Assembly (NCBI GenBank): GCA_026552955.1
Contig: JAPMTS010000047.1
Coordinates: 31,120 to 95,119, forward strand
Reading direction: 5' to 3'
DNA length: 64,000 nt
From: Candidatus Methanoperedens sp.
GTDB taxonomy: Archaea > Halobacteriota > Methanosarcinia > Methanosarcinales > Methanoperedenaceae
Shown: one piece after another, positions 5,870 through 60,376 of the stretch
Layout of the letters: every line of letters begins with the position of its first letter
Position numbering within the stretch: the first letter of the stretch is position 1
Position numbers and translations under genes: made by a program
The notes under the pieces: generated by a model
Told to the model about the DNA's origin: nothing
Database searches by the model: none
The model's input: only the letters and a program-made list of their open reading frames with translations

Positions 5870-6685
5870 ATGAATTATCTTTTAATTGTATTCATCGGGA
5901 TAATAGGAGTTTTCTATTATAATACAGTTGGATGGATGTTTGAGTCGTGGATGTATAATGACTATTATTCACATGGATTTATAGTACCTATAGTATCAGG
6001 ATATATTGTATGGAAAATGAGACCTGTTCTTGCATCTGTGGAAAAGAAAACATCACAGGGAGGTCTTTGGCTTTTTATAGCAGGAATAGTTCTTCAGGTA
6101 ATCAGCATGGTATGGACCATAAGATTCCTGTCAGGCATATCTTTTATAGTGACCCTTGCAGGTGTCATAATATATTTGTTTGGGTGGGATTTCATGAAAA
6201 AAATCAAATTTCCATTCCTTTTCCTGTTATTTATGATACCATTTCCTCTTGTGGATATCATAGCATCTCCCGCACAAACTTTTTCAGCATTTGCCTCTAC
6301 AAATATCGCAAATCTTATTGGAATACCGGCCCGGTTAGAAGGATTGGTCATAACCATTCCAGAAGGATCATTTGAGGTGGGTATTACCTGCAGCGGTATA
6401 AATTCAATAATATCATTGTTAACGATCGGAGCCCTCTTTGCTTTAATTCTGGAAGGCAGTAGATCAATGAAGTTAACGATCCTGGCATCCGCAATACCTC
6501 TTGCCATGGCAGGGAATATTCTCAGGATCACATCAGTATTGGCAGTTTCAACGGTGTATGGGCAGACCGCTGCAATACATTATTTCCATGATTTCTCAAG
6601 TCTTGTTTTTTTCAGCTTTTCCTTGATATCTTTATTTCTGGTTGGGAGGTGTTTCGGACGGCTGCAGTTCAAAAAAATCTTTTAA
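5870..6685 (+). CDS. Exosortase/archaeosortase family transpeptidase
   Basis: 271 residues, about eight membrane helices. The family signatures are all present: YSHGFIVPIVSGYIVW in the first helices, FPFLFLLFMIPFP, then the catalytic cysteine C174 in ITCSGINSI, arginine R219 in GNILRI, and histidine H240 (or H237) in HYFHDFSS. Exosortases cut C-terminal sorting tails of exported proteins at the membrane outer face and attach the product to a new anchor. The sequence and the EpsI partner that overlaps it by 37 bases resemble bacterial exosortases more than the archaeosortase A type at 48-49 kb. No obvious substrate tail lies next to it. A conserved ATG with a purine-rich leader precedes it. 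Confidence 0.88.
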   Translation: MNYLLIVFIGIIGVFYYNTVGWMFESWMYNDYYSHGFIVPIVSGYIVWKMRPVLASVEKKTSQGGLWLFIAGIVLQVISMVWTIRFLSGISFIVTLAGVIIYLFGWDFMKKIKFPFLFLLFMIPFPLVDIIASPAQTFSAFASTNIANLIGIPARLEGLVITIPEGSFEVGITCSGINSIISLLTIGALFALILEGSRSMKLTILASAIPLAMAGNILRITSVLAVSTVYGQTAAIHYFHDFSSLVFFSFSLISLFLVGRCFGRLQFKKIF

Positions 6686-7443
6686 TAATGATAGGCATAT
6701 TGCTCCTTTCATATGTTTCCGTATTATTGCTATCCCAGGAGGATATTACTGATTACACTGTTGCAGACACCGAATACTGGCGTGAGAGCGTGAATCGCCT
6801 GATGCTAAAAACCTCATATGACTACAACAATGAGGAAGAAGTAAAAGCATTTCCAAAAACTATCGGAGAATGGAAAGGTTCTGATTATAGATATCCTGAT
6901 GGAATATATAAACTCTTAAAAGCCAAAGTGCTTCTGAGCAGGACATACACAAATAATGATGGGAATTTGGTATGGATGGACATTATCAATAGTAAGGTTG
7001 GAGAAAGTTTCCATAAGCAAAGAATTTGTGTAGAAGGAGCAGGCTGGAAAATAAATAAAGAAAGCATAGCTGAGTTCAAAATAGGAGAATCCACAAATCT
7101 TTTTGCAAAATTGCGCGCTAATAGACTTGATTATAGTAAAAAAGATCAAAAACAGATAATGATTTACTGGTTCATGTTCGAGAAATTAGGGGCAAAAGAT
7201 TCGGTTGCCATGATCCGTATAACTTCTCCTGTTACCACAAATGAGACAGATACATATAATTTGATCACAGGTTTTGTGGAAGATAATTTATTCAGGACTA
7301 TGTATGATCAGGTAGGCCAGGAGAACAGTACAGTAGCAGAGAATATCATGAATACGTATGGGAATTTAGGCAAAGTGGCCATAGCAATGGGAATACTTAT
7401 ACCCATTGGCATCATTTTTGCGGGTATTAGGCTAAAGAATTGA
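6649..7443 (+). CDS. epsI: EpsI-family exosortase-associated protein (DUF3485)
   Basis: 264 residues: an N-terminal membrane helix (about 12-29), an extracellular domain, and a second hydrophobic segment near the C-terminus. EpsI hallmarks are visible: FPKTIGEWKG near residues 65-74, and SFHKQRICVEGAGWKI near 121-136, matching the H-x3-x-C-x3-G-W pattern of the family. EpsI proteins accompany exosortases, either as separate genes or as a C-terminal fusion; their exact role is unknown. The long frame begins with GTG at 6649 inside the sortase gene. An ATG at 6688, two bases after the sortase stop, would give a protein beginning at the membrane helix and is a fair alternative start. Confidence 0.8.
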   Translation: MFRTAAVQKNLLIMIGILLLSYVSVLLLSQEDITDYTVADTEYWRESVNRLMLKTSYDYNNEEEVKAFPKTIGEWKGSDYRYPDGIYKLLKAKVLLSRTYTNNDGNLVWMDIINSKVGESFHKQRICVEGAGWKINKESIAEFKIGESTNLFAKLRANRLDYSKKDQKQIMIYWFMFEKLGAKDSVAMIRITSPVTTNETDTYNLITGFVEDNLFRTMYDQVGQENSTVAENIMNTYGNLGKVAIAMGILIPIGIIFAGIRLKN

Positions 7444-16159: not shown

Positions 16160-17254
16160 TTATTTCCCGTTTTTATTTGCCTTTCCTGTCGCGTGACAAT
16201 CCGAACAGAATTTTGGTCGATGACAATCGCTGCATACTTTGCCTATCAAAACCTGTGACTTATGAGTATTTATCCAATTGCTGGGATGATCACTCTTATG
16301 ACAGGTGCTACATAGATTTTCCTTGATATGAGGAACATGTTTTACGTCAGAATGACAAAAATAACATGCGATCTTATTATTTGTGACATGGTTCGTATGT
16401 ACCATACCGAAATCATCATATTTTGCCACCCTCTCAGGTTTATAATGACATGAAATGCATTTATCCTTGGAAACAATATCATTCGCTCCGATAGATATAT
16501 TTGTATGACATAGCAGGCAATTAGCTCCACGGTCTATATGGCTTGTATGATCAAAGTTTGTATAGTTCCTTGGAGTTTCGGTTGGAGGACCGTGACAGGA
16601 TGGACAACCGGAAATCGATAAATTATCGGAAACATCCCTGAAATGGCATGTAAAGCAGGTAGATGTTGTTACCACGATGTGTCCTTTTTCTTCTTGTTCC
16701 ATATTGGGATGACATTGGACACAGGTCGGATCTGATACCGATTGATGTTCTTTCATGCCGATAACAAGCATGGAATGGCAGCTTGTGCATGTTAATTGTA
16801 TAGCCCTATTTGGTTTTAGCAAATGGTTCTTATGACTGAAGTTGACACCTGTGAATGGAACCTCGGTTGAAAAAATTCGATCTTCATGGCACAAGAGGCA
16901 GTTTTTATCCATTACTTTAGCATATAAATTTCCTGAATATTCTTCCACAGTGGTCTCATAACTATAGAACTGCATAAGCCCATTTAGTTTCCCTTTTACA
17001 TGGCCGATTATACCCGGTTCATAATGGCATTCCACACATTTTACGGTAGTATGTGATGAAGTCCTCCATGAATCGTAATAAGGCCTCATTATATGACAAT
17101 TCTTGCCGCAAAACGCCGGATTTTCAGTGATCTCCAGCATTTTTGCAGAAATTACTAATGTAACTGAAAGCAATATGATTAATACAATAATAATAGGAAG
17201 TTTATATCTTGAAATCCTATGCTTAATAACATCTATAAGTGATATTTTATCCAT
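16160..17254 (-). CDS. Membrane-anchored multiheme c-type cytochrome, NapC/NirT-like N-terminus
   Basis: 364 residues. A single N-terminal membrane helix (about 19-39) is followed by FCGKNCHIMRPYYDSW, resembling the first-heme region of NapC/NrfH quinol-oxidising cytochromes but with three residues between the cysteines. I count 12 CXXCH motifs plus this CXXXCH, so up to 13 hemes. The region after residue 60 is built of repeated CXXCH units with spaced histidines that may be distal ligands. It probably takes electrons from the membrane complex encoded upstream and passes them outward. Its SD region (GGTGAAGGG) overlaps the stop codon of the preceding gene; gap 6 bases. Last gene of the operon. 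Confidence 0.88.
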   Translation of the reverse strand: MDKISLIDVIKHRISRYKLPIIIVLIILLSVTLVISAKMLEITENPAFCGKNCHIMRPYYDSWRTSSHTTVKCVECHYEPGIIGHVKGKLNGLMQFYSYETTVEEYSGNLYAKVMDKNCLLCHEDRIFSTEVPFTGVNFSHKNHLLKPNRAIQLTCTSCHSMLVIGMKEHQSVSDPTCVQCHPNMEQEEKGHIVVTTSTCFTCHFRDVSDNLSISGCPSCHGPPTETPRNYTNFDHTSHIDRGANCLLCHTNISIGANDIVSKDKCISCHYKPERVAKYDDFGMVHTNHVTNNKIACYFCHSDVKHVPHIKENLCSTCHKSDHPSNWINTHKSQVLIGKVCSDCHRPKFCSDCHATGKANKNGK

Positions 17255-17260
17255 TTCCCT

Positions 17261-18235
17261 TCACCGTTTTCTAATAAGATATAAAACTGCAAATATTCCC
17301 AGAACTAAGGTTATCCCAAATCCTGGAACAGAAGGTGCAGTTGGTTCAGCGTTACTTAGTTTGCCTTGCGCTTTCTTAGCCGAATCTATCCCGACTTGAA
17401 TTTGCCTGTCAAAATCTTTTATATTGAAACTATGCCACAATGATGGAACATCCTTCATAATAGCTATTGCTTTATCAAGATCATTTTGGGATGAAACAAT
17501 ATCTTTTCCTTTTGCCTTTGCATCAGAAACAGAATTTCTTGCTTTTCTGATTTCTTCTTTTAATTCATCCGCTTTTTCAAGTGCAAATTTTGCATCTTTT
17601 GGAATATTTGCACTTGAGACCTGGTCTTTTGTATTGTGGCAAACACTGCACAATGGTGTGATTTCAGATGCATGCAATACTTTGAAACTATGCGGTTGAT
17701 GGCAATTTACACATGATGGCGCACGTGATTCGGCTCTTAATCTTTGATAATGCATGGTATTTTTAAAATGATCCAATTCTGTTGCATGGCATTTTCCACA
17801 TGTTTCAGGAATATTCTTAAAATAAATCGGACTTTGCGGATCACTTATATTCTCAATGGTAGAATGAGCCCCTTCTATTGTATTTATTTCCGTATTGCCT
17901 CCATGGCATGCATCACAGGTAACAGAATAGTCCGAATGACTTGAATCAGACCATTGCTGGAAATTATCAGACGCTTTTTTCCTTATTATGTCTTCATGAC
18001 ATTCAAGTGAACAAGATATATTTCTTTCGGTATGATTCGATCTAATATCATTGAATCGTAATTGCTCATTCGTAAAAGGTGATAAACTCTTATGGCAATT
18101 AATACATGAATTATTTAAAGCTTCATAATCAGCTGCTCCTACTGGGGCGATCAAGAAAATGATAACTATTAATAATTTTTGTGCAAATCTAAAACTATTC
18201 ATGTATGAATCTGGTTTTTTATCTCTTGGTGACAT
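17261..18235 (-). CDS. PGF-CTERM multiheme cytochrome c
   Basis: 324 residues. There is a signal peptide (about 17-34, ending VGAAD), then five CXXCH sites (CINCH, CDACH, CGKCH, CVNCH, CSVCH) and one CSLECH with three spacer residues. An alpha-helical charged region (about 205-285) follows, then a C-terminal VPGFGITLVLGIFAVLYLIRKR-type tail: PGF motif, hydrophobic helix, basic end. That tail is the PGF-CTERM signal recognised by archaeosortase A, predicting cleavage and lipid anchoring outside the cell. It is a clear paralogue of the protein at 20937-21905. An internal ATG (codon 12, at 18202) would give a more standard signal peptide. It follows NrfD after 237 bases containing hairpins. Confidence 0.85.
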   Translation of the reverse strand: MSPRDKKPDSYMNSFRFAQKLLIVIIFLIAPVGAADYEALNNSCINCHKSLSPFTNEQLRFNDIRSNHTERNISCSLECHEDIIRKKASDNFQQWSDSSHSDYSVTCDACHGGNTEINTIEGAHSTIENISDPQSPIYFKNIPETCGKCHATELDHFKNTMHYQRLRAESRAPSCVNCHQPHSFKVLHASEITPLCSVCHNTKDQVSSANIPKDAKFALEKADELKEEIRKARNSVSDAKAKGKDIVSSQNDLDKAIAIMKDVPSLWHSFNIKDFDRQIQVGIDSAKKAQGKLSNAEPTAPSVPGFGITLVLGIFAVLYLIRKR

Positions 18236-18370
18236 TTTTTCTTTTCCGCCGTTATTGTGATTTGAATTAATATTTTTTAATGCCAGAACTATGTACCCGT
18301 TTTTTATTCTGTCTTTCTTGCTATGACGTGATGATTCAATACAATAAAAAGTTTGCGATTATTTTAACAT

Positions 18371-18455
18371 GACATCACAAAATCAAAATCGATGTCTTTT
18401 TCCAAATATTCATGAGACACTAGGCCTTTCCTGGCATCTGTGCGTCTCATGAATA
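18371..18455 (-). promoter_or_regulatory. Two stem-loops between nrfD and the downstream cytochromes
   Basis: A perfect 12-bp inverted repeat has arms at 18407-18418 and 18444-18455 (TATTCATGAGAC and its complement) with a 25-base loop. A second, GACATC/GATGTC, lies at 18371-18376 and 18391-18396. Both fall in the only large gap of the minus-strand cytochrome operon. No U-rich tract follows in the transcript, so an mRNA processing or attenuation element is as likely as a terminator. Confidence 0.5.
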
Positions 18456-18472
18456 CTGATTCGACAAATTAC

Positions 18473-19642
18473 CTAAGACGGTTCTTCTTCCATATCTTTC
18501 CACGGTGGCAGGATAGATGTTACAACCAGCAATATTATGAATGGGAGAATAAATATTATTAAAGCCGGTAAGATACCTTCCTGGCTGTAGAAAACAGGTA
18601 CATATGTAAGTGTTCCGCTCAGGCTTTTTGAAATTTCTTGCCCTCCGATCACTACATTCCATCTCATGGCAAATACGCCTATTACCACAAAGATAGATGA
18701 TATGGATATCATGTAAAGCTTCAGCGTTTCACGGTTCTTTATTAAACTCACCATAAGTAATAGGACGAAAGGTATGAATATGCCAAGTGTCAGTTGCACA
18801 CCATAAAAAGTAAATCCGATCTTATCCGAAAGGAGCCTGTTAATGATATCAATATCTTCACGTGAGGCATATTTCATGCTAACTATCTCAAGTAATTCCA
18901 ATGTTACATCCAGGATCAAAAAAATCCACAGGTAATGTGCAAGTGATTGAAGACATTTATGGTCAATTACATGTTTGCGTATTTTCATTGCCGCAATATA
19001 TAATAAGATCAATAACGCTATCCCTGATACTATAGCCGACATGAGGAAAATGATCGGCATAAGGGGGGTTGACCACCATGGGTTTGCCTTGATACCGCCG
19101 AATATAAAACCCACATAACCGTGCAAGAATGCTGCCGAGGGGATACCGATTATAGCAAGTTTCCTGGCGAATTTTTCATCATCATGCAATGCTTTTTCAG
19201 AAATATCAAATGAAAACAGGGCAAGACTTGAATATAATAATTCCTTCCATCCATGAGAACTAAGAGCTTTATTCACAATATCTTCCCTGAAGGAAAGCCA
19301 TATCTCAAGCACTACGATGGTCAGATAGAATGAAAATATATAGCCAAAACCTGACATTGCAGATGTCAGATGTGGAGTGAACATGATCTCAATTCCACGC
19401 TCCGGACGTCCAAGATGAACGAGCAGAGGCAGCATTGCAACAAGCAGGAATGACAATGCCGTAAGAAGTGCAAATCTTGCTACAGGCTTGATCTCCTTCT
19501 TGCCAAAAACATGGTATAATGATGAAGCAATGAAAGCACCTGCTACCAGGCCTGTAATATAAGGGTACAATACTATCAATATACTCCATTGTATTTCGGA
19601 TTCATTGGGATAAACATAACCCCATATCAGATTCTCTAACAT
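18473..19642 (-). CDS. nrfD: NrfD/PsrC-family membrane quinone-interacting subunit
   Basis: 389 residues with about ten membrane helices. The N-terminus (WSILIVLYPYITGLVAGAF) matches the start of NrfD/PsrC proteins, and HLGRPERGIE after helix 2 is the family's conserved LxRPER-type loop. NrfD subunits bind (mena)quinone or methanophenazine-like carriers and couple with a 4Fe-4S subunit. Its ATG overlaps the last base of the 4Fe-4S gene, so the two are coupled. With flanking cytochromes the unit resembles Qrc/Act/Nrf-type quinol:cytochrome c oxidoreductases. The direction of electron flow cannot be read from sequence. Confidence 0.88.
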   Translation of the reverse strand: MLENLIWGYVYPNESEIQWSILIVLYPYITGLVAGAFIASSLYHVFGKKEIKPVARFALLTALSFLLVAMLPLLVHLGRPERGIEIMFTPHLTSAMSGFGYIFSFYLTIVVLEIWLSFREDIVNKALSSHGWKELLYSSLALFSFDISEKALHDDEKFARKLAIIGIPSAAFLHGYVGFIFGGIKANPWWSTPLMPIIFLMSAIVSGIALLILLYIAAMKIRKHVIDHKCLQSLAHYLWIFLILDVTLELLEIVSMKYASREDIDIINRLLSDKIGFTFYGVQLTLGIFIPFVLLLMVSLIKNRETLKLYMISISSIFVVIGVFAMRWNVVIGGQEISKSLSGTLTYVPVFYSQEGILPALIIFILPFIILLVVTSILPPWKDMEEEPS

Positions 19643-20427
19643 TATCTCACTTCCCGGTCTAAACCGATATAGAATACCTTGGGCTTTGTACCAAGATCGG
19701 GTTTAAGAAGAGTGATTCTTTCTTCATCCATTATTTTCTTTACTTCGCTTGTATTATCCTTCAGGTCTCCGAATTTTCGTGCTCCTGTGGGGCACGCCTG
19801 AACACATGCTGGTAATAAACCTTTAGTAATTCTGTGGTAACACCACGTGCATTTGTCTGCTGTTCCCTTCTCGGTATTAAAGTACCTGGCACCATATGGA
19901 CATCCCTGTATACAATACCTGCAACCGATGCAATATTCATAATCCACCAGTACAACACCATCTTTTGTCGTATACGTTGCACCTACCGGACAAACCTGTA
20001 CGCATGGGGCATTATCACAATGATTGCATATTTTCGGTACATAGAAAGCCTTTTTTATTTCTTCGGCGGGAATGTCATCCTCAAATCCTTCTATTCCCCC
20101 ATCAGGTGAATCAATTTCAACTTCTTCCTCTCTGGTTTCATTTATTGTTTTCTTCACCCGGTATCTTTCAATCCATGTCCTGTAAACTTCTTCATCAAAC
20201 GGCACTTCATTTTCCATTTTACATGCACTGGCGCACATTCCGCAACCTATGCATTTGCGCGTGTCCACCACATAACCCCAAAAGTGTTTCTCCCAATCAT
20301 ACCCTTCAGGGGGATTTTCAGCCGCAATACCTTTGGTGAACATTGATTCTACGATTGCAGTTCCTGAGGCCGCACTTATTATAATTTTGCATCCGATCTT
20401 AGTAAAATCTCGTCGTGTAATATCCAT
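19642..20427 (-). CDS. Tat-exported four-cluster 4Fe-4S protein (NrfC/HybA-like)
   Basis: 261 residues. A twin-arginine signal (TRRDFTKIG near residues 4-12) precedes a hydrophobic stretch, so the mature protein acts outside the membrane. Four Cys groups follow the DmsB/NrfC order: CIGCGMCASACKMEN, CNHCDNAPCVQVCP, CIGCRYCIQGCP, and CTWC...CVQACP, consistent with four cubane clusters. An acidic insertion (ETREEEVEIDSPDGGIEGFEDD) sits between the first and second group. It would pass electrons between NrfD and the cytochromes. A good SD (AGGAGG region at 20433-20438) precedes the ATG. Confidence 0.9.
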   Translation of the reverse strand: MDITRRDFTKIGCKIIISAASGTAIVESMFTKGIAAENPPEGYDWEKHFWGYVVDTRKCIGCGMCASACKMENEVPFDEEVYRTWIERYRVKKTINETREEEVEIDSPDGGIEGFEDDIPAEEIKKAFYVPKICNHCDNAPCVQVCPVGATYTTKDGVVLVDYEYCIGCRYCIQGCPYGARYFNTEKGTADKCTWCYHRITKGLLPACVQACPTGARKFGDLKDNTSEVKKIMDEERITLLKPDLGTKPKVFYIGLDREVR

Positions 20428-20439
20428 ATTCTTCCTCCT

Positions 20440-20889
20440 TTAATCGAACCAGGGTTTATGCGGATTATGGCAATAGACGCATCTTAGATCCTCGCCATGA
20501 GCTTCTGGATCGATCTGCGGGAAGGTTTCAGGCCTTGATATCCGCTTGAAGTGGCATTTACCGCAATAATCTCGTGAATCATCAGCTGGTGTTAATGGTT
20601 CCCTTGCATTAAGAACATGTTTTTGCGCAGGGCTGTGGCATGTTTCACAATTCACGGTCTTATGCCGGTCCTTCACCCATACTGTGTAAATATTTTCATG
20701 ACAGTTCTCTTCTCCACAGCTTATAGAACCCGCATAATTTACCGTGAGATTTCTAAGTTCTTTTACAGAATCACCCCTGTACCATCCATATTGCCCGAAT
20801 GATTCAGGGACAACCAGGGATCTTACAAAAATAAAAGCAATTATTATAAGAGCTAATATAGTAAAAGCTCTTTTTAAATGTGGCTGCAT
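20440..20889 (-). CDS. Small membrane-anchored multiheme cytochrome c
   Basis: 149 residues. One N-terminal helix (about 9-27) is probably uncleaved and acts as an anchor. Heme sites are CETCH, CGKCH and CVYCH, plus CGEENCH with four residues between the cysteines, which may be a fourth heme. The conserved VWVKDRHKTVNC segment resembles small cytochromes of NrfD-linked complexes. It lies 12 bases upstream of the 4Fe-4S gene. Probably the electron-transfer cytochrome subunit of the complex. Confidence 0.82.
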   Translation of the reverse strand: MQPHLKRAFTILALIIIAFIFVRSLVVPESFGQYGWYRGDSVKELRNLTVNYAGSISCGEENCHENIYTVWVKDRHKTVNCETCHSPAQKHVLNAREPLTPADDSRDYCGKCHFKRISRPETFPQIDPEAHGEDLRCVYCHNPHKPWFD

Positions 20890-20936
20890 TACTTATCACC
20901 TTTCCATGACAGGATATCGTTCATCATTGACGGCCT

Positions 20937-21905
20937 TTATTTCTTTCTCAGAATATAGAACACGGCCATTAGCGAAATTATTCCGGTAATACCCATAAAT
21001 CCTGGCAATCCCGGTGCTGTGGGGATTTCAGTCGGCACAGGAGCGGGTTTCACGATGTCCATGGCATTTTTTATTTCCGAATTCGCTGAATTTATTACAT
21101 CCTCAAAATGAGTGAGATTGAATTCATGCCACATTGGCGCAAGATCTCCAAGCGTTTTGAGTGCATTATCTGTATACTTTTCAGCTGTCGCCACATCAGT
21201 TCCATTCTTCTTTGCCCAGAAAATATCCTGTCTGGCATTATCAATATTGAATTTCAATTTATTTACTTTTCTTAGCATATCTTCTGCTTTTAATGGTATG
21301 TCATAAGGCGCTACTTTCTTATAAACAGAATGACAGTTCCCGCAGGAGTTCCTGAAATCTTCAGGATTCATGATTGTGAAGGTATGGGGGATATGGCATG
21401 TTGTACATGTTGGGGCGAGCTGCAAAGATTCAAGTTTCTTGTAATGAGTACTATTTTCAAAATTATCCAGTTCTTTTGAATGGCATTCACCGCATGTCTT
21501 TGGAACATTGGTATAATAAACAGGGCTTTCAGGGTCGGTATTGTTCTTGAAATTTATATGTGCTTTTTCTTTGGTGGCCTGTTTCGGGTCGCCTCCATGG
21601 CAGGCATCGCATGTGACTCCTTTCAGGGCGTGGACAGATTCCGACCATTGCTGGAAATTAGCTGTGGCCAGCTGTCTTACCCGGTCTTCATGGCATTCCA
21701 GGGAACAATCGGCATTCCTTTCAAGATGCTGGATCCTTATCTGGTTAAACCTTTTTTGTTCTTCAATAAATGGTGTCAAAGTCTTATGACAATCCACACA
21801 TGAATTTTCAGAAGCATTCACAGCAGGAAAAAACACTAAAATTTCTGCCAAAATTATAAATACAATTAAAAATCTATTAAATGATATCATTCGCATTTTA
21901 TTCAA
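20937..21905 (-). CDS. PGF-CTERM multiheme cytochrome c, first gene of the operon
   Basis: 322 residues. A signal peptide ends near VNASEN (about residue 31). Heme motifs are CVDCH, CDACH, CGECH, CTTCH, CGNCH and the spaced CSLECH. A charged helical region precedes the PGF-CTERM tail (LPGFMGITGIISLMAVFYIL then RKK). It matches the paralogue at 17261-18235 over nearly the whole length, including the CSLECHED and CDACHGG contexts, so the operon carries a duplicated surface cytochrome. The two may be alternative or successive electron carriers. The upstream region has four CGTTTT repeats around a TATA-like sequence. Confidence 0.87.
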   Translation of the reverse strand: MNKMRMISFNRFLIVFIILAEILVFFPAVNASENSCVDCHKTLTPFIEEQKRFNQIRIQHLERNADCSLECHEDRVRQLATANFQQWSESVHALKGVTCDACHGGDPKQATKEKAHINFKNNTDPESPVYYTNVPKTCGECHSKELDNFENSTHYKKLESLQLAPTCTTCHIPHTFTIMNPEDFRNSCGNCHSVYKKVAPYDIPLKAEDMLRKVNKLKFNIDNARQDIFWAKKNGTDVATAEKYTDNALKTLGDLAPMWHEFNLTHFEDVINSANSEIKNAMDIVKPAPVPTEIPTAPGLPGFMGITGIISLMAVFYILRKK

Positions 21906-47530: not shown

Positions 47531-48313
47531 ATGAAAAAATTCTTAAGCAATCTTATTGCAGCCGGATTCATTTTGCTCATGGCTTTAGCTCTACTTTCAG
47601 GCATATCAGTGCTTCTTGGCTACGAAAAACTTGGCAATATAGAAGGTGGGGGGCATCATTTATTTACAGGGTATGCTTACGGCAACTGGGGAGCAACACT
47701 TCTTAGCATTGGGATTTTTTCTGTCTTTGTGCTCAGCTTCCTTACTCCCCTGAAGAAGCAGAACTGGCGTACCCTGGGAATATATGAAGCGTTCATAATA
47801 GCGCTGTTTTCGGAGATGTATGGTTTCCCACTTACGATATATGTTCTCTCTGCGCTTTTCGGCCTGAACCTCTCTTTAGGACATGCACAGGGACACCTGC
47901 TTGGAGTTCTTATTTCTAATGCAGGTTTAATGAGTATGGAAGCTTCCTGGGCGCTTGTGATGGTAACAAGCAGCGCGGTTATATTCCTGGGACTATTCCT
48001 GATGTCAAAGGGCTGGAGCAGCATTCACTCAGGAAATGGAGAACTGGTGACCGATGGCATTTACAGGTATGTCAGGCATCCTCAGTATCTGGGCCTTATA
48101 GTACTAACGATCGGGCTGCTGATCCAGTGGCCCACCATAATCACACTTGCAATGTGGCCAATTCTTGTTTTAATGTATTACAGGCTGGCAAAAAGAGAAG
48201 AAAGAGAAGCGATAGAGGCTTTCGGTGGAATATACGAAGAGTACATGCTGCGGACACCAATGTTGTTACCATCCTTGAGAAAGAAGGGTATGGAAAACCA
48301 GGTGATATTATAA
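47531..48313 (+). CDS. Isoprenylcysteine carboxyl methyltransferase family protein
   Basis: 260 residues, several helices. The C-terminal catalytic region of the ICMT/PEMT family is clear: GIYRYVRHPQYLGLIVLTIG binds S-adenosylmethionine, and REEREAIEAFGGIYEEYM completes the motif. Such enzymes methylate carboxyl groups of prenylated proteins or lipids. It is followed directly by an archaeosortase gene, so a role in modifying sorted or lipid-anchored proteins is conceivable but unproven. Starts 4 bases after the previous stop. Confidence 0.82.
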   Translation: MKKFLSNLIAAGFILLMALALLSGISVLLGYEKLGNIEGGGHHLFTGYAYGNWGATLLSIGIFSVFVLSFLTPLKKQNWRTLGIYEAFIIALFSEMYGFPLTIYVLSALFGLNLSLGHAQGHLLGVLISNAGLMSMEASWALVMVTSSAVIFLGLFLMSKGWSSIHSGNGELVTDGIYRYVRHPQYLGLIVLTIGLLIQWPTIITLAMWPILVLMYYRLAKREEREAIEAFGGIYEEYMLRTPMLLPSLRKKGMENQVIL

Positions 48314-48324
48314 CATTAACGCTA

Positions 48325-49122
48325 TTGGTCTCGCTCGTATTTCTGGTCATTGCATCGTTCCTTCCGAAATCCTTTAATTCAAGGTTCATCTTTGCTGGTT
48401 CCGGCTGGATATTCCTTGCAATATACTGGTCCGGGCAACTTGGGAGTTACATTGAGCTTAAGGATTATGTTAATATCATCCTGGTAATCGCCGCAGCCTT
48501 TGCATCCTTATTTATAGCATATATAACATTCCAGGCGAAGGATAAAAATGATACAGGCGACTATGAAGTGTTTATTTCCTTATCAAGGGCAGCATCTATT
48601 AGCGGTTTGGTATATTTCCTGTTTGCGGAGGTAGAATTATTAAACAGATGGATAATATCAACGGTCGCAGGACAGGGAACATGGTTGATCGGGAAATTCG
48701 ATTTTCCTGTTACGAATGTGGCATGGAACCAGCTTGCAGTAAATGGCCTGGTCGTTGAAATTATACTTGCCTGCACAGCGATCGAAAGCATTGCCCTGTT
48801 TTCAGGCATAATTTCTTCAGCTTCCAGTGCGACTTTAGGACGGAAGGTCCAGGTGTTTATGATATCCGTGCCTGTGGTGTATGTGCTGAATATTATCCGC
48901 GTCTCTTTTACAGCCTCAGCCTATGGATTAAGCTGGTTTGGCACACCTGATGAAAGTTTTCATATTTCAGAGCATTTTATTACAAAGGCAGGCTCGTTGC
49001 TGGCTTTATTGTTAATTTCTTATTATGTTCTGAAAATGCTGCCAGAGGTTGCCGATATGTTAGATGATATCTTGAATATGATGAGAACAGAATTTCATAG
49101 ATTTATATTAAAGTTATCATGA
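48325..49122 (+). CDS. artA: Archaeosortase A-like transpeptidase
   Basis: A membrane protein with the archaeosortase triad: catalytic Cys in ACTAIESIALFSGI (TGC 48772), Arg in VLNIIRVSF (CGC 48898), His in HISEHFITKAGSL (CAT 48961 or 48973). The RKVQVFMISVPVVYVLNIIR context is typical of archaeosortase A, which processes PGF-CTERM proteins and transfers them to lipid. The start is uncertain: the frame is open from a GTG at 48127 inside the methyltransferase gene, but the added residues are basic and unlike the family. TTG at 48325, 12 bases after the methyltransferase stop, gives a start at the first helix. Likely substrates in the window are the cytochromes at 17261 and 20937. Confidence 0.78.
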   Translation: MVSLVFLVIASFLPKSFNSRFIFAGSGWIFLAIYWSGQLGSYIELKDYVNIILVIAAAFASLFIAYITFQAKDKNDTGDYEVFISLSRAASISGLVYFLFAEVELLNRWIISTVAGQGTWLIGKFDFPVTNVAWNQLAVNGLVVEIILACTAIESIALFSGIISSASSATLGRKVQVFMISVPVVYVLNIIRVSFTASAYGLSWFGTPDESFHISEHFITKAGSLLALLLISYYVLKMLPEVADMLDDILNMMRTEFHRFILKLS

Positions 49123-50813: not shown

Positions 50814-51746
50814 CTATATTTCTAAAATTTGCTCATCCCGCGATTTTTCTGCTTCGCCAGGGTATATTCCTGCCGTTATAGACTGATATACAACCTCCTT
50901 GTTGAAATCCTCTAATTTCAAGCGGTCGAGGCAGCTTCCAAATCGCTCTCCAATATTTGTATGGTGCTTTGACCATTCGATTATTTTTCTAAATACAGCG
51001 ACTGTTTCTTGAGCTGTATTTACTTCTATAAACTCCCTTCCATGTCTTGGATTTCGTCCAACTTTTCCACCAATGAATATCTTCAGTCCTCTCCTACCTT
51101 CAAAGATAAGCCCTTCTGGACATGATCCAAGACAATAGCCGCAGAGTTTGCATCTATTCTGAAGGATGCTTGCTTTTCCATTTTCCACCAAGATAGCTTT
51201 CTGGGGGCATATTGTGGTACAGGCTCCACATCCCGTGCATTCAGTAGATATTGCTGGTCTTATTACGCCCATTACTCCAATATCGTTTTCCTGGGGCTTT
51301 GCACAAGCATTGGGACATCCTGCAATTGAGAATTTCATTTTTACAGGCATATCCTCACAAAAAAATTCCTTGTCCAGCAGGATTCCGAGGCTGTAGGTAT
51401 CGATTATACCATGACAGCATTCATGGTTTCCCGGGCATGCAACGATATTCCGGACGCGTGATCCAAAAGATCCCGGCGGTGTACAGTTGGATTCCAGTTC
51501 TTCCGTGATTATGTCGAGATAATCGATACTGATATCCGGGATCTGGATACCCTGGCGGGTAGTGATGTGTATATACCCGCTGCCGTATTTTCTGGCGATA
51601 CCGCTGATTCCCTGAAGCTGTTCTGATGTAACATTACCACAGGGAATGCGGAGTCTGACCGCAAAAAGGTCTTTTTGTCTCTGTTTCATATATCCAGATT
51701 TCTTTAAAGTTGCTAAGTCAAGTTCTTTCAGTCTCATTATGTACAT
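50814..51746 (-). CDS. Siroheme sulfite/nitrite reductase-like protein with two 4Fe-4S clusters
   Basis: 310 residues. The siroheme/[4Fe-4S] ligands are C-x5-C (C104, C110) in ACPGNHECC and C-x3-C (C144, C148) in AGCPNACAK. Residues 170-209 insert a ferredoxin domain with CTGCGACTTICP and CKLCGYCLGSCP. This short single-subunit form is the archaeal Dsr-like/Fsr C-terminal type, which reduces sulfite, nitrite or an unknown substrate. A truncated ccdA lies between it and the operator-bearing promoter at 52167. Start at 51746 or the second ATG at 51737. Confidence 0.85.
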   Translation of the reverse strand: MYIMRLKELDLATLKKSGYMKQRQKDLFAVRLRIPCGNVTSEQLQGISGIARKYGSGYIHITTRQGIQIPDISIDYLDIITEELESNCTPPGSFGSRVRNIVACPGNHECCHGIIDTYSLGILLDKEFFCEDMPVKMKFSIAGCPNACAKPQENDIGVMGVIRPAISTECTGCGACTTICPQKAILVENGKASILQNRCKLCGYCLGSCPEGLIFEGRRGLKIFIGGKVGRNPRHGREFIEVNTAQETVAVFRKIIEWSKHHTNIGERFGSCLDRLKLEDFNKEVVYQSITAGIYPGEAEKSRDEQILEI

Positions 51747-56056: not shown

Positions 56057-59000
56057 TCACATGAAATCCGCCAGCCCCTTCTGCTTCACCTTATCGCTCT
56101 CAAACAGCGACCTCATCTCGATCTCAAGCAGCTCAAGCCTCTGCTTCGTGTAATGCCGCACATTGTACTCATCCGCAATGCGCAAGCTGGTTTCAAGATA
56201 CTTCCTCACCGAGCCCTCGTGCACGGTAAGTACGATATTCCCGCCGCACCTTGGGCATGTTCCCTGCAGGGGCGGGCGCCTGTATTTGGCATTGCATTTT
56301 GTGCACCTCACCTTTTGTTTTGAGAAAGAGCGCAGATTCCCGATAAGGTCGGGCAGGAAATGAGAATTTATAACACGCTCAGCAACATCTTGTGGGTCAA
56401 CTGCTTTTATTTTCCTTGCAAGCCCAAGCTGAGCCTCCATTTTTTCAATCATTGTGCCCAGCGTCTTGTATGCGCTGTTCCTTGGCCCGGCAGCGATATT
56501 TGCTGTATCGTGGGTGAATCCGAAGCCTTCATACTGGGCAGGCGTACCCAGCCTTCCACTGACCGTATCCATGATCTTGACCAGGTCTTTTGGATTTGTG
56601 TACTTGAGCGTGGCTTCAAAGAACTCAAGTGGATACTGAAACAGCACATCAACGTTATGCGCTTCCTTATCAACCTCATTGGGATCGATACGCGACGTCA
56701 GGACAAGAGGCGCATCCATCTGCCCGCCCCGCCTGTCGGGAAGATATGAGCGCGAGAAATTCACGAGGCCGTCCATCAGCAGCATCACGCAGTCCTCGTC
56801 GCCGTCGCACTGGAATGTGGTAATTCCCGAGCAGATGAAACTGTGATGGGTATCGACTGTCAGATTATACACATATTTATCCGGGGAGTTTATCTCTTTT
56901 TTTTCCACAATTTTATCGATGAACACGTCTTCATCAAAACTTGTTCTCGCACCGCCTTTTTTAGGCAGCCATTTATTAAGCAATTCTTCAGCATGTTTTT
57001 GCTTTTCACCGAGGAAGCCTATGTCTTCTATGAATTTTCCAGCTTCGCTGCCATATATCCCTATGTTATACGAATCTTCATAGATAGAGTGTTTGATCCC
57101 GGAAAACATCAGGAGGTAGGACACAGCATCTATAAGCCATTTATTTACTGAAGTTACATTCACCTCTAAAGTGCTCATCAGGGAACATGATCCATCCCTG
57201 GTAAAATAACCTCTTAGAAATGCATTTATCTTATCTTCTGGAAGAGAATAGATAACGTTCGGAATCCTTTTTATTTTCTCGTCAGTTATCGAAAGCAGGT
57301 CATAATTCTCTTTAGATTCGATAGGTGGTTTTTTAATGTTCCAGGGTATCAATAATTCATCTGCATCCTGCGCCTTCACTTTTTCTCCTGTCCTATCCGG
57401 GAACAGATGATCTTTAGTTACGACTATCTTCCTGCCGCTTTTCGTTTTTATTTCTATCAGCTTTTCAGGAGAAACATGTTTTGAAACATGGGTTATATCC
57501 GCCAATTCGAATTTTTTTGTTTTTATGTTGAAAGCAAATGTCTTCAGACCCTTAACCTTGTTGTATTGCGTTCCGAAATCATCTTCTTCTCTTTTGTCGG
57601 TAAGATTGAGTTCAACAAGCTCGCGAATCGTCAAAAGTTCAAAGTTATCTCCTCTCTGAACCAATACTTTTTCATCCCCATGAAAGCAGTTTCGCCGCTT
57701 GGCTGCATGGAAAAAAGGATGGGCATAGCCAACAGACGCCGTGGTAAAGCCCACAAGGCGGGCTAGCACTCCCGCTGATGTATGGGGGGCTAAGCCTATG
57801 ACCAGTTTCCCGATCAGGTCATCGATCTTGTCGATATTATAATAAGATTCGACTTTATAATATCTCGTCAAAAGGTCATCTATGAAATGTGCAGTCTTTA
57901 AAAGATATTCGGCGCAATCTTTTGAAACAACAATGTCCTGCACTTTAAGTTCAAGGATCTGGGTCTCATCCGTAAGCAGATTCCCGAATGTGTCATTCAC
58001 ATAACCCATTTCCTTACATTTCGACACCGAGACGCCGAGTTCCCCGGGTTTGATATGCGTAAGAGGCATATCCGATAGGTCATACCTCACAGTCCCGTCC
58101 TTGAACATCACCACATCATGCTTTGCCCTGAGCACCCCTTTTTCTAATGGTTCAGGCGTCTTGTTTTTTGAAGTAAGGCCAAGAACGCCTTTGGGTTTGA
58201 AAACATCCCTCTCCCCGAGGTTATCAAGCGCTCTTTGGTATTCCGATATGAAATCAATATCCATTTCAGTGACAGACGTAGTCTCTTTTTTGCATTTCGG
58301 GCATAGTGGTTTATCGACTTCTATGCCGCATGACTGGCATTTAAGAAGCGGAATTGTGAATTTTCCGCATGAACACCTGTTCTTGAAAGTCCTGCTCTTG
58401 CATGCCGGACATATGCGCTGGCCAATTTGAACGTTTATTGTCCCCACTTTTCCTTTCTGGTAAGTAAGTCCTGTCTGGAACTCACTATTCTTGAATTCAT
58501 TATTTTTCTCTTTGCTAATATCCTCATCATCCACGAAATCTTTCACATCTACAAGGGATCGCCTCTTTCCTCCGGCTCCACCTATCGGGAAAAGCACATG
58601 CGGCGCGGGTTTCATTTCACGCTTATCGGATTTTTCGGGACGTCCCATTCTCGCGCCGATCCTTATGGGAGCACGCGCCCTGATGGTTATCCTGCTTGTT
58701 TTAGAGACGGTATCCAGAATGTTGGCCCCCATAACCAGGGAAGTCTTTTTAAGAGTCATATCAAGGCCAAGACATCTCATAAGAGGGAGCGGTTCTTCGA
58801 TCACAACCTTCTTTTCACGGACGATATGGGGGACAAGAAGAACTTCAAGAATGTTCTTTATTTTTTCATCCAGTGCAAATGAGAGCCTGTCAGAATATGT
58901 CCCATTTTTTTGGATGTATTCGAACAGCTGGGAGAACTCCTCAATTGAAATATCATGCCACAGGTATGTATATTTTGGATGCAGCGGCACGTTAAATTTA

Positions 59001-60376
59001 TCTGATAAAGAAAGCGCTTTTTCCTGGTCAGGATTCTTAAGGTTGCCAAGCTCCTTTATTGAAGTTTTTGCCATAAGTTCCTGAATCCACCATTCAAAGC
59101 AATAGGACGAGGGCACAAGAGGGTGGTTATTCTCCAGGAAATCGCCGAAATTTATCAGTATCTCTCCGATATCAAGGATCTGCTTCACAGACGGGCGTAT
59201 TTTTTGGGCTTCCTCTGCTGTCTTAATACTGAGAACATCTCCATTGAAAAGGCGAACTGTGGGGCCATCGATGGTATCAACTGGTGCTATACCCGCTGCT
59301 TTTCCCGGCCGCTCCACCTTTATCTGGGTGCCCGCCGCAATGAAATCATCCATCATTACCATTGTAGCGGGACTGATACCCGCAGCTGCAAAACTCGTGT
59401 TCCTGCCCCTGCCATACCTTAGCCTGAAACCTCCCGGTCTTGAGGGATAGGAAAAAACAGGCCGTCCTGCTATCAGGTCCTGCAGGTACTTGTCCTTTGG
59501 TTTTAATTGCGCAGAGGCATCATCGGTTTTAACTGTAACTACGAATTTATCAAGCCAGTCCCATCCTTCCAGTTTGAGCTTATCCACATGCTTTTTCACT
59601 TTTGGCGCCTTAAGAGCAATACCTTCGGCAATGACAAGCGCCATGCCGCCACGTATTCTATTGGTCTCGATCCTGGGGAGATCCCGCCTGCCTTCCACTT
59701 CAGCTTCCTCTGTTGGTTCGCCGTCAATGCATATGGGGCAGTTCCTGACAATGAGCCGGATCTCATCATCCGACGGAAGATACTGCAAATTCGCCACGCG
59801 CCTGTATGCTGTGATCTCTTCAACATATCTCTCAACTTCTTCAGGCCGCGGGACAAAACGCGCGATCCCCAGGTTCGCCCGCACATAATCGGCAGCCAGC
59901 ACCGATAGCGCCTGGGCGGTGCCCCCGGCGCTCCTTATCGGGCCGGCATAATATATCCTTATATAATCGGTGCCATCATCGTTTTTTGCCAGGTCTATCT
60001 TGGCGATACCTTCTATAGGCGCAGCCACCACACCTTCCGTAAGGACTGCCATTGCTACCCTTACTGCAGCTTCGATGGCATCCCTGTTTGATTCGAAGTT
60101 TTTGATCTCACCTTTTGCAACAGCAATTGCCACCTGAAGAGCCGCTTCCTCACGCGACATCGTAGTTTCAAGTTCCCTGAGCTTTTTTGCCACTCCTTCG
60201 ATAGAAAGAAGTTTCTCAACCCTGTCTGCAAGGTCTTTTGCGATTGGTATTTCGATCGTCGGCATCGGGTCTGCGCCGTTTGCGCGGGCGCGGTTTGCAT
60301 GCTCGATAGCGCGGTATAGCTCAGTTTCAAGCGTGCTAAAATAAGCAAGCATTGGATCGCTTGCGGCGAATTTCAT
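56057..60376 (-). CDS. polC: DNA polymerase II (family D) large subunit DP2, with intein
   Basis: 1439 residues as translated, about 1146 after removal of the 293-residue intein. Extein features include [17 protein letters not shown], the zinc cluster [32 protein letters not shown], the catalytic NCDGDED (split by the intein) and the C-terminal zinc site [22 protein letters not shown]. Family D polymerase is the replicative enzyme of most euryarchaea. The gene overlaps carB by 4 bases. The C-terminal LADFM and [11 protein letters not shown] are usual. DP1 is not in the window. Confidence 0.96.
56810..57688 (-). other. Intein at the catalytic site of DP2 (PolII allele)
   Basis: 879 bases, 293 residues. 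It starts with Cys1 in [13 protein letters not shown], has block [14 protein letters not shown], and ends [21 protein letters not shown] split before |CDGDED. The last residue is Gln, not the usual Asn, and the penultimate His is replaced by Phe; the +1 residue is Cys. The endonuclease region keeps one DOD motif ([11 protein letters not shown]) and a following SYLLMFSGI segment, while the first LAGLIDADG block is not seen, so homing is probably lost. Splicing residues look usable. Confidence 0.88.

Follow-up and report, generated by a model that had tools for sequence, protein, structure and literature searches.

A probable NrfD-type electron-transfer module and a separable cytochrome pair in Candidatus Methanoperedens, with a PGF tail conserved in one of two hexaheme paralogs

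Six open reading frames (ORFs), all on the minus strand, occupy positions 16160-21905 of a 64,000-nt stretch of DNA from Candidatus Methanoperedens sp. (the window). The first four encode the hexaheme cytochrome cytA, a small cytochrome, an exported iron-sulfur (FeS) protein and an NrfD-like membrane protein (together the core), and are best read as an Nrf/Psr-type menaquinol:cytochrome c oxidoreductase that lacks a terminal reductase, in which cytA would be lipidated by archaeosortase A (ArtA). The last two, encoding the cytochrome cytB and the 13-heme protein c13, would form a separable second module in which cytB remains uncleaved. A probability of about 70% is assigned to this reading, which draws on synteny and gene content, the ligands of hemes and clusters, the retention of a PGF triplet in cytA and its absence from most cytB sequences, and the presence of sortases. 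From 21896 down to 16160 the order is cytA, small cytochrome, FeS protein, NrfD, a gap of ~240 nt, cytB and c13, with heme motifs numbering 6 in cytA, 4 in the small cytochrome, 6 in cytB and 13 in c13.

Conservation and composition of the core

The relatives compared were chosen for carrying cytA, so that the synteny fractions given here describe cytA-bearing loci. The order cytA-small cytochrome-FeS protein-NrfD was kept in 25/25 fetched loci, giving a positive answer to the search for the same operon in Methanoperedens genomes that the preliminary description of this DNA had proposed. Overlapping antisense frames aside, only the six cluster genes recurred in most of the 25 loci, and no recurrent extra gene for a molybdopterin or other catalytic subunit was found in the core flanks of most of them. 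NrfD, 78-99% identical across the 25 relatives, and the four-cluster ferredoxin were both confirmed by Pfam and NCBIfam searches. In the FeS protein, whose stop codon overlaps the NrfD start, the arginine pair of the twin-arginine translocation (Tat) signal was present in 27/28 rows (96%) and all 16 cluster Cys were 100% conserved. In the small cytochrome (n=27), eight Cys and the distal His were invariant, and four further His were kept plus one near the N-terminus; it likely carries four hemes, a count restricted to CXXCH giving three. The NrfD, the Tat-exported 4Fe-4S protein and the small cytochrome named in the preliminary description are all borne out. With no gene for a catalytic subunit and only partial PF02335 (NrfA) matches in the source genome, none of them full-length, the core is, as judged from gene content, a module for electron transfer, not a terminal reductase. 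Oxidation of quinol by the NrfD/FeS module is predicted, mqnE (futalosine pathway) speaking only for menaquinone as the quinone. A second NrfD and FeS protein, accompanied by a 1073-aa Tat-type protein and without cytochromes, occur in genome G000 (contig C40, L221:7525-12588), in what looks like a molybdopterin-type reductase operon.

Hexaheme paralogs and their tails

As described earlier, cytA and cytB are paralogs, with 41% identity. The start of cytA is probably the ATG at 21896 rather than the TTG at 21905 taken by the ORF caller, because the sequence GGAAGGT lies 8 nt upstream of the ATG and would abut the TTG. Among cytA orthologs (n=26), the 12 Cys and 6 His of the motifs were invariant, as were 6 other His, and in cytB orthologs the motif His and six further His were invariant or nearly so; bis-His ligation is therefore possible for all six hemes, which would suit electron transfer over catalysis. 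The irregular CX3CH and CX4CH motifs, whose Cys were invariant or nearly so among 26-30 orthologs per protein, look like real heme sites.

The two tails differ in their conservation. In cytA orthologs the triplet was kept (P 25/26, G 26/26, F 26/26) amid a variable linker and helix, and the model TIGR04126 was weakly matched by 11/26 orthologs (best E=7.7e-4). In cytB, PGF was found in 7/30 sequences, the window included, the remainder having PGI, PGV, PGA or no PG. Two further hexaheme paralogs, cytC and cytD, kept the F in 26/28 and 28/28 sequences, respectively, and their tails in the source genome pass the Pfam cut-off. Because PGF is invariant in cytA, ArtA is present in 34/34 family genomes and the paralog tails pass the cut-off, cytA is a credible ArtA substrate that very probably bears a genuine anchoring tail, and its cleavage and lipid attachment are predicted. 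The PGF of cytB does not appear to be maintained by selection, and cytB is probably without a functional sorting tail. The preliminary description had placed PGF-CTERM tails on both cytochromes and proposed archaeosortase processing of both, which holds up well for cytA and loses its footing for cytB.

It is unlikely, if worth weighing, that cytA and cytB are both ArtA substrates and both lipid-anchored, with the ArtA of this family tolerating PGI, PGV or PGA. The window cytB does have PGF, 18 of 19 aligned cytB tails retain the P and 16 of 19 the first G, and two cytC copies read PGA; however, the loss of F from most cytB sequences contrasts with its retention in the three paralogs over the same genome set, the closest cytB ortholog (88% identical) has PGA in place of PGF, and TIGR04126 does not rank among the 25 families with the most frequent matches to cytB orthologs. 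Still less probable is that both tails are ordinary single membrane anchors with no archaeosortase processing. A helix with a basic end does resemble a simple stop-transfer anchor, and both window tails fall below the model threshold, but such an anchor would have to be reconciled with an invariant cytA triplet in variable surroundings, with a PGF nearly as constant in cytC and cytD, whose source-genome copies pass the cut-off, and with archaeosortase A in every one of the family genomes.

The archaeosortase A homolog in the window, which has the ACTAIES and NIIR motifs, lies ~27 kb from the cluster; the source genome has two copies above the cut-off, and its sortases comprise these two ArtA, one ArtC and an EpsH-like exosortase. 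In Haloferax, a permuted PGF blocks ArtA cleavage and lipidation, according to the title of ref. 11 in PMC7157517. A second type of ArtA reading PGI/PGV tails was considered and is unsupported, since the single-ArtA relatives G009 and G027 (two genomes only) are also without the cytB PGF. In G000 (contig C22:20660-20906; L011, L012), two separate short open frames each give a brief, partial match to archaeosortase A and may be what is left of a third copy. Window positions 5870-7443 (+) encode an exosortase of the bacterial EpsH/XrtA-like type (170 bits against TIGR02602, cut-off 105.55), preceded by a glycosyltransferase gene and followed by an EpsI-like gene.

The cytB-c13 pair as a second module

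The cytB and c13 genes were adjacent to each other in 29/29 fetched loci, directly after the core in 18/25 loci and two further contig fragments, and elsewhere in seven genomes. Since the pair is always together yet sometimes away from the core, the window is taken to hold two neighboring modules. The gap between NrfD and cytB (18236-18472) holds a 12-nt perfect inverted repeat, and this gap, together with the placement of cytB-c13 elsewhere in seven relatives, makes two units more likely than one operon. The single operon described earlier stands insofar as all six genes are adjacent on one strand, but it more likely comprises two units. A sigma-70 promoter scan, whose coverage does not extend to archaeal promoters, gave counts equal to those in shuffled sequences. 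The search of viral contigs turned up no relative.

The 13 heme motifs previously counted in the NapC-like cytochrome were recovered in c13, the 12 CXXCH comparing with 0.15 expected in shuffles. Among 30 sequences, the 26 motif Cys were 100% conserved, and the 13 motifs and 13 distal His were invariant. The N-terminus matched TIGR03153 (E=8.7e-20), and because its 71 bits are under the equivalog cut-off of 134, c13 is not NrfH itself; the c13 profile also matched NrfH 2j7a_C residues 40-124 (E=7.7e-4). An N-terminal helix and an NrfH-type heme region, as expected of a NapC/NrfH quinol dehydrogenase, are both present, and c13 and cytB probably form a second electron entry point from quinol.

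A hexaheme family of four paralogs

At a loose threshold the hexaheme family was detected in 33/34 Methanoperedenaceae genomes, and at E<=1e-20 in 32/238 genomes of the class, all 32 of them Methanoperedenaceae; gammaproteobacterial relatives (~28% identity) share the heme domain and have no comparable tail. In a paralog tree computed from tail-trimmed sequences, cytB, cytC and cytD each formed one side of a branch, and the root given by the bacterial outgroup fell inside cytA, which may be a long-branch effect. Downstream of the cytC and cytD genes come those for Rieske, cytochrome b and subunit IV-like proteins, with the menaquinone gene mqnE nearby. In G000 contig C11:3290-8983 (L068), two PGF-tailed hexaheme cytochromes share one neighborhood with an mqnE-like gene and with genes for Rieske, cytochrome b and subunit IV-like proteins; it probably corresponds to the noncanonical bc complex reported by Leu et al. 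We tentatively propose, with somewhat less than even confidence, that cytA-D are one lineage-specific family serving as a common acceptor docked to unrelated quinol oxidases of the NrfD type and the Rieske/cytochrome b type, three members being freed from their membrane helix and lipidated by ArtA and cytB, with its 13-heme partner, having lost the signal and staying fixed. If so, sortase processing would separate mobile from fixed carriers. The occurrence of four paralogs on two kinds of quinol oxidase also points to a shared acceptor family.

Proposed electron route and its alternatives

We infer electron direction, carrier order, processing and anchoring as follows. NrfD, from what is known of its family, would bind and oxidize menaquinol in the membrane, and electrons would pass through the exported FeS protein, by way of its four [4Fe-4S] clusters, to the membrane tetraheme cytochrome and on to the bis-His hexaheme cytA. 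ArtA would cut the C-terminal helix of cytA at PGF and put a lipid in its place. The processed cytA would then sit under the S-layer, in the outer leaflet of the cytoplasmic membrane, and its electrons could move onward to further multiheme proteins and to acceptors outside the cell; crossing the S-layer would need other proteins. In parallel, c13 and cytB would act as a second quinol-oxidizing module of the CymA/NrfH type, with hexaheme cytB anchored by an uncleaved helix. A role in respiratory electron export, as first put forward, is well supported for the cytA system by the invariant PGF, the ubiquity of ArtA in the family and the paralog tails. The accompanying claim that the tails hold carriers at the cell surface does not extend to the outermost surface: ArtA anchors to the outer leaflet under the S-layer, and the tails therefore argue for a membrane-proximal acceptor of a quinol oxidase.

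Several points weigh against this scheme. Both window tails score below the Pfam PGF-CTERM cut-off of 18.8 bits (12.2 for cytA and 10.5 for cytB), and because of its score the curated class label is not claimed for cytA, which is a credible PGF-CTERM protein by its conservation and would work like one. Because the genome also encodes ArtC and the EpsH-like exosortase, cytB may be cut by another sortase. The AlphaFold model of cytA is fair (pLDDT, the predicted local distance difference test, 72), but Foldseek found no significant match in the PDB, the fold matches to hydroxylamine oxidoreductase and related multiheme enzymes not being significant, and the model of c13 (pLDDT 37) is unusable. 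Sequence gives no direction of electron flow, and no published biochemistry for the complex was found.

A complex running in reverse in vivo, with extracellular electrons reducing menaquinone via the cytochromes, is very unlikely. The NrfD/FeS module is common to Qrc and Hmc, which the NCBIfam matches also resemble. In Qrc and Hmc, electrons run from cytochromes to quinone. However, this organism is expected to oxidize methane and must discharge menaquinol electrons, and what is reported of the same operon in Ca. M. manganicus includes high expression with the external acceptor Mn(IV) (PMC7082337). A reductase for nitrite or another terminal acceptor (Nrf, Psr, Phs or Ttr type) with a catalytic subunit is a highly improbable reading of the cluster, since NrfC/NrfD/NrfH-like subunits and a weak resemblance of cytA to NrfA are outweighed by PF02335 matches that are only partial genome-wide, possible bis-His ligation of every cytA heme and the lack of NrfA or a molybdopterin subunit recurring beside the cluster in 25 relatives.

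For anaerobic methanotrophic archaea (ANME), biochemical proof of the electron route from the quinone pool to outside acceptors was not found in the literature. A PGF kept in cytA, cytC and cytD but not in cytB of the same genomes provides an internal control for the role of the sortase in such a route.

Feature coordinates and other genes in the window

Table 1. Features of the cytochrome cluster and the archaeosortase gene in the window.
Feature	Position	Strand	Details
cytA, hexaheme c-type cytochrome	20937..21896	-	5 CXXCH + 1 CX3CH; signal helix at the N-terminus, PGF tail at the C-terminus
cytA PGF-CTERM-like tail	20940..21005	-	PGF, hydrophobic helix, RKK end
Small membrane-anchored tetraheme cytochrome	20440..20889	-	3 CXXCH + 1 CX4CH
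Tat-exported ferredoxin-like protein, four [4Fe-4S] clusters, NrfC/TtrB/DsrO-like	19642..20427	-	PF13247, E=1.3e-29
NrfD-like integral membrane quinone-interacting subunit	18473..19642	-	PF03916, E=1e-47, 163.7 bits
Inverted repeat, 12 nt, perfect	18407..18455	.	In NrfD-cytB gap; module boundary
cytB, hexaheme paralog of cytA	17261..18235	-	5 CXXCH + 1 CX3CH, C-terminal hydrophobic tail
cytB PGF-like tail	17264..17326	-	PGF, hydrophobic stretch, basic end; triplet variable in orthologs
c13, NrfH/NapC-like N-terminus, single membrane anchor, C-terminal multiheme extension	16160..17254	-	12 CXXCH + 1 CX3CH
Archaeosortase A homolog	48127..49122 (model match 48325-49101)	+	TIGR04125, 208.7 bits, cut-off 75

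Elsewhere in the window, positions 50814-51746 (-) encode a small protein that resembles siroheme sulfite/nitrite reductases, includes a ferredoxin domain and is similar to sulfite reductase subunit C below the cut-off, and positions 56057-60376 (-) encode a DNA polymerase II large subunit, apparently with an intein, by reading of the translation alone.

Comparison with known systems

The operon type and PGF-tailed ANME cytochromes were previously known. Leu et al. 2020 (PMC7082337) report that NrfD, a 4Fe-4S protein and cytochromes with 3 and 6 hemes are encoded in one operon, whose expression is high in Ca. M. manganicus with Mn(IV), and PMC7327174 reports five conserved menaquinone:cytochrome c oxidoreductase groups in Methanoperedenaceae. 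Because gene content agrees (NrfD, 4Fe-4S protein, 3-CXXCH and hexaheme cytochromes in one operon of the same organisms), the core is presumably the operon of Leu et al., in whose passages on these groups the PGF tail, the conserved CX4CH (fourth heme) and a separable cytB-c13 are not mentioned. By its gene content, the core differs from the NrfD cluster with 7-heme cytochromes that is upregulated on electrodes (PMC10874420). PGF-tailed small multiheme cytochromes in ANME were published in 2017 and 2022 (PMC5244752, PMC9012536), and S-layer multiheme fusions have been proposed for S-layer crossing (PMC9012536). The cytA/cytB contrast, the four-paralog family and the separable cytB-c13 seem to be additions, no paper stating them having been found in a partial coverage of the literature.

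Like NrfBCD of the Nrf nitrite reductase, the core combines NrfD, an exported four-cluster FeS protein and an outer-side multiheme cytochrome, but it has no NrfA, an archaeal host and a hexaheme acceptor with a sorting tail. With the quinol dehydrogenases CymA, NrfH and NapC, c13 shares one membrane helix and the NrfH-type heme region, from which it departs in an extension that brings it to 13 hemes and in having cytB as its partner. As in ArtA-processed PGF-CTERM proteins, the PGF of cytA is followed by a hydrophobic helix and a basic terminus, with ArtA encoded in the genome; unlike them, it scores under the curated cut-off, and the substrate would be a cytochrome of respiration, not a glycoprotein of the S-layer.

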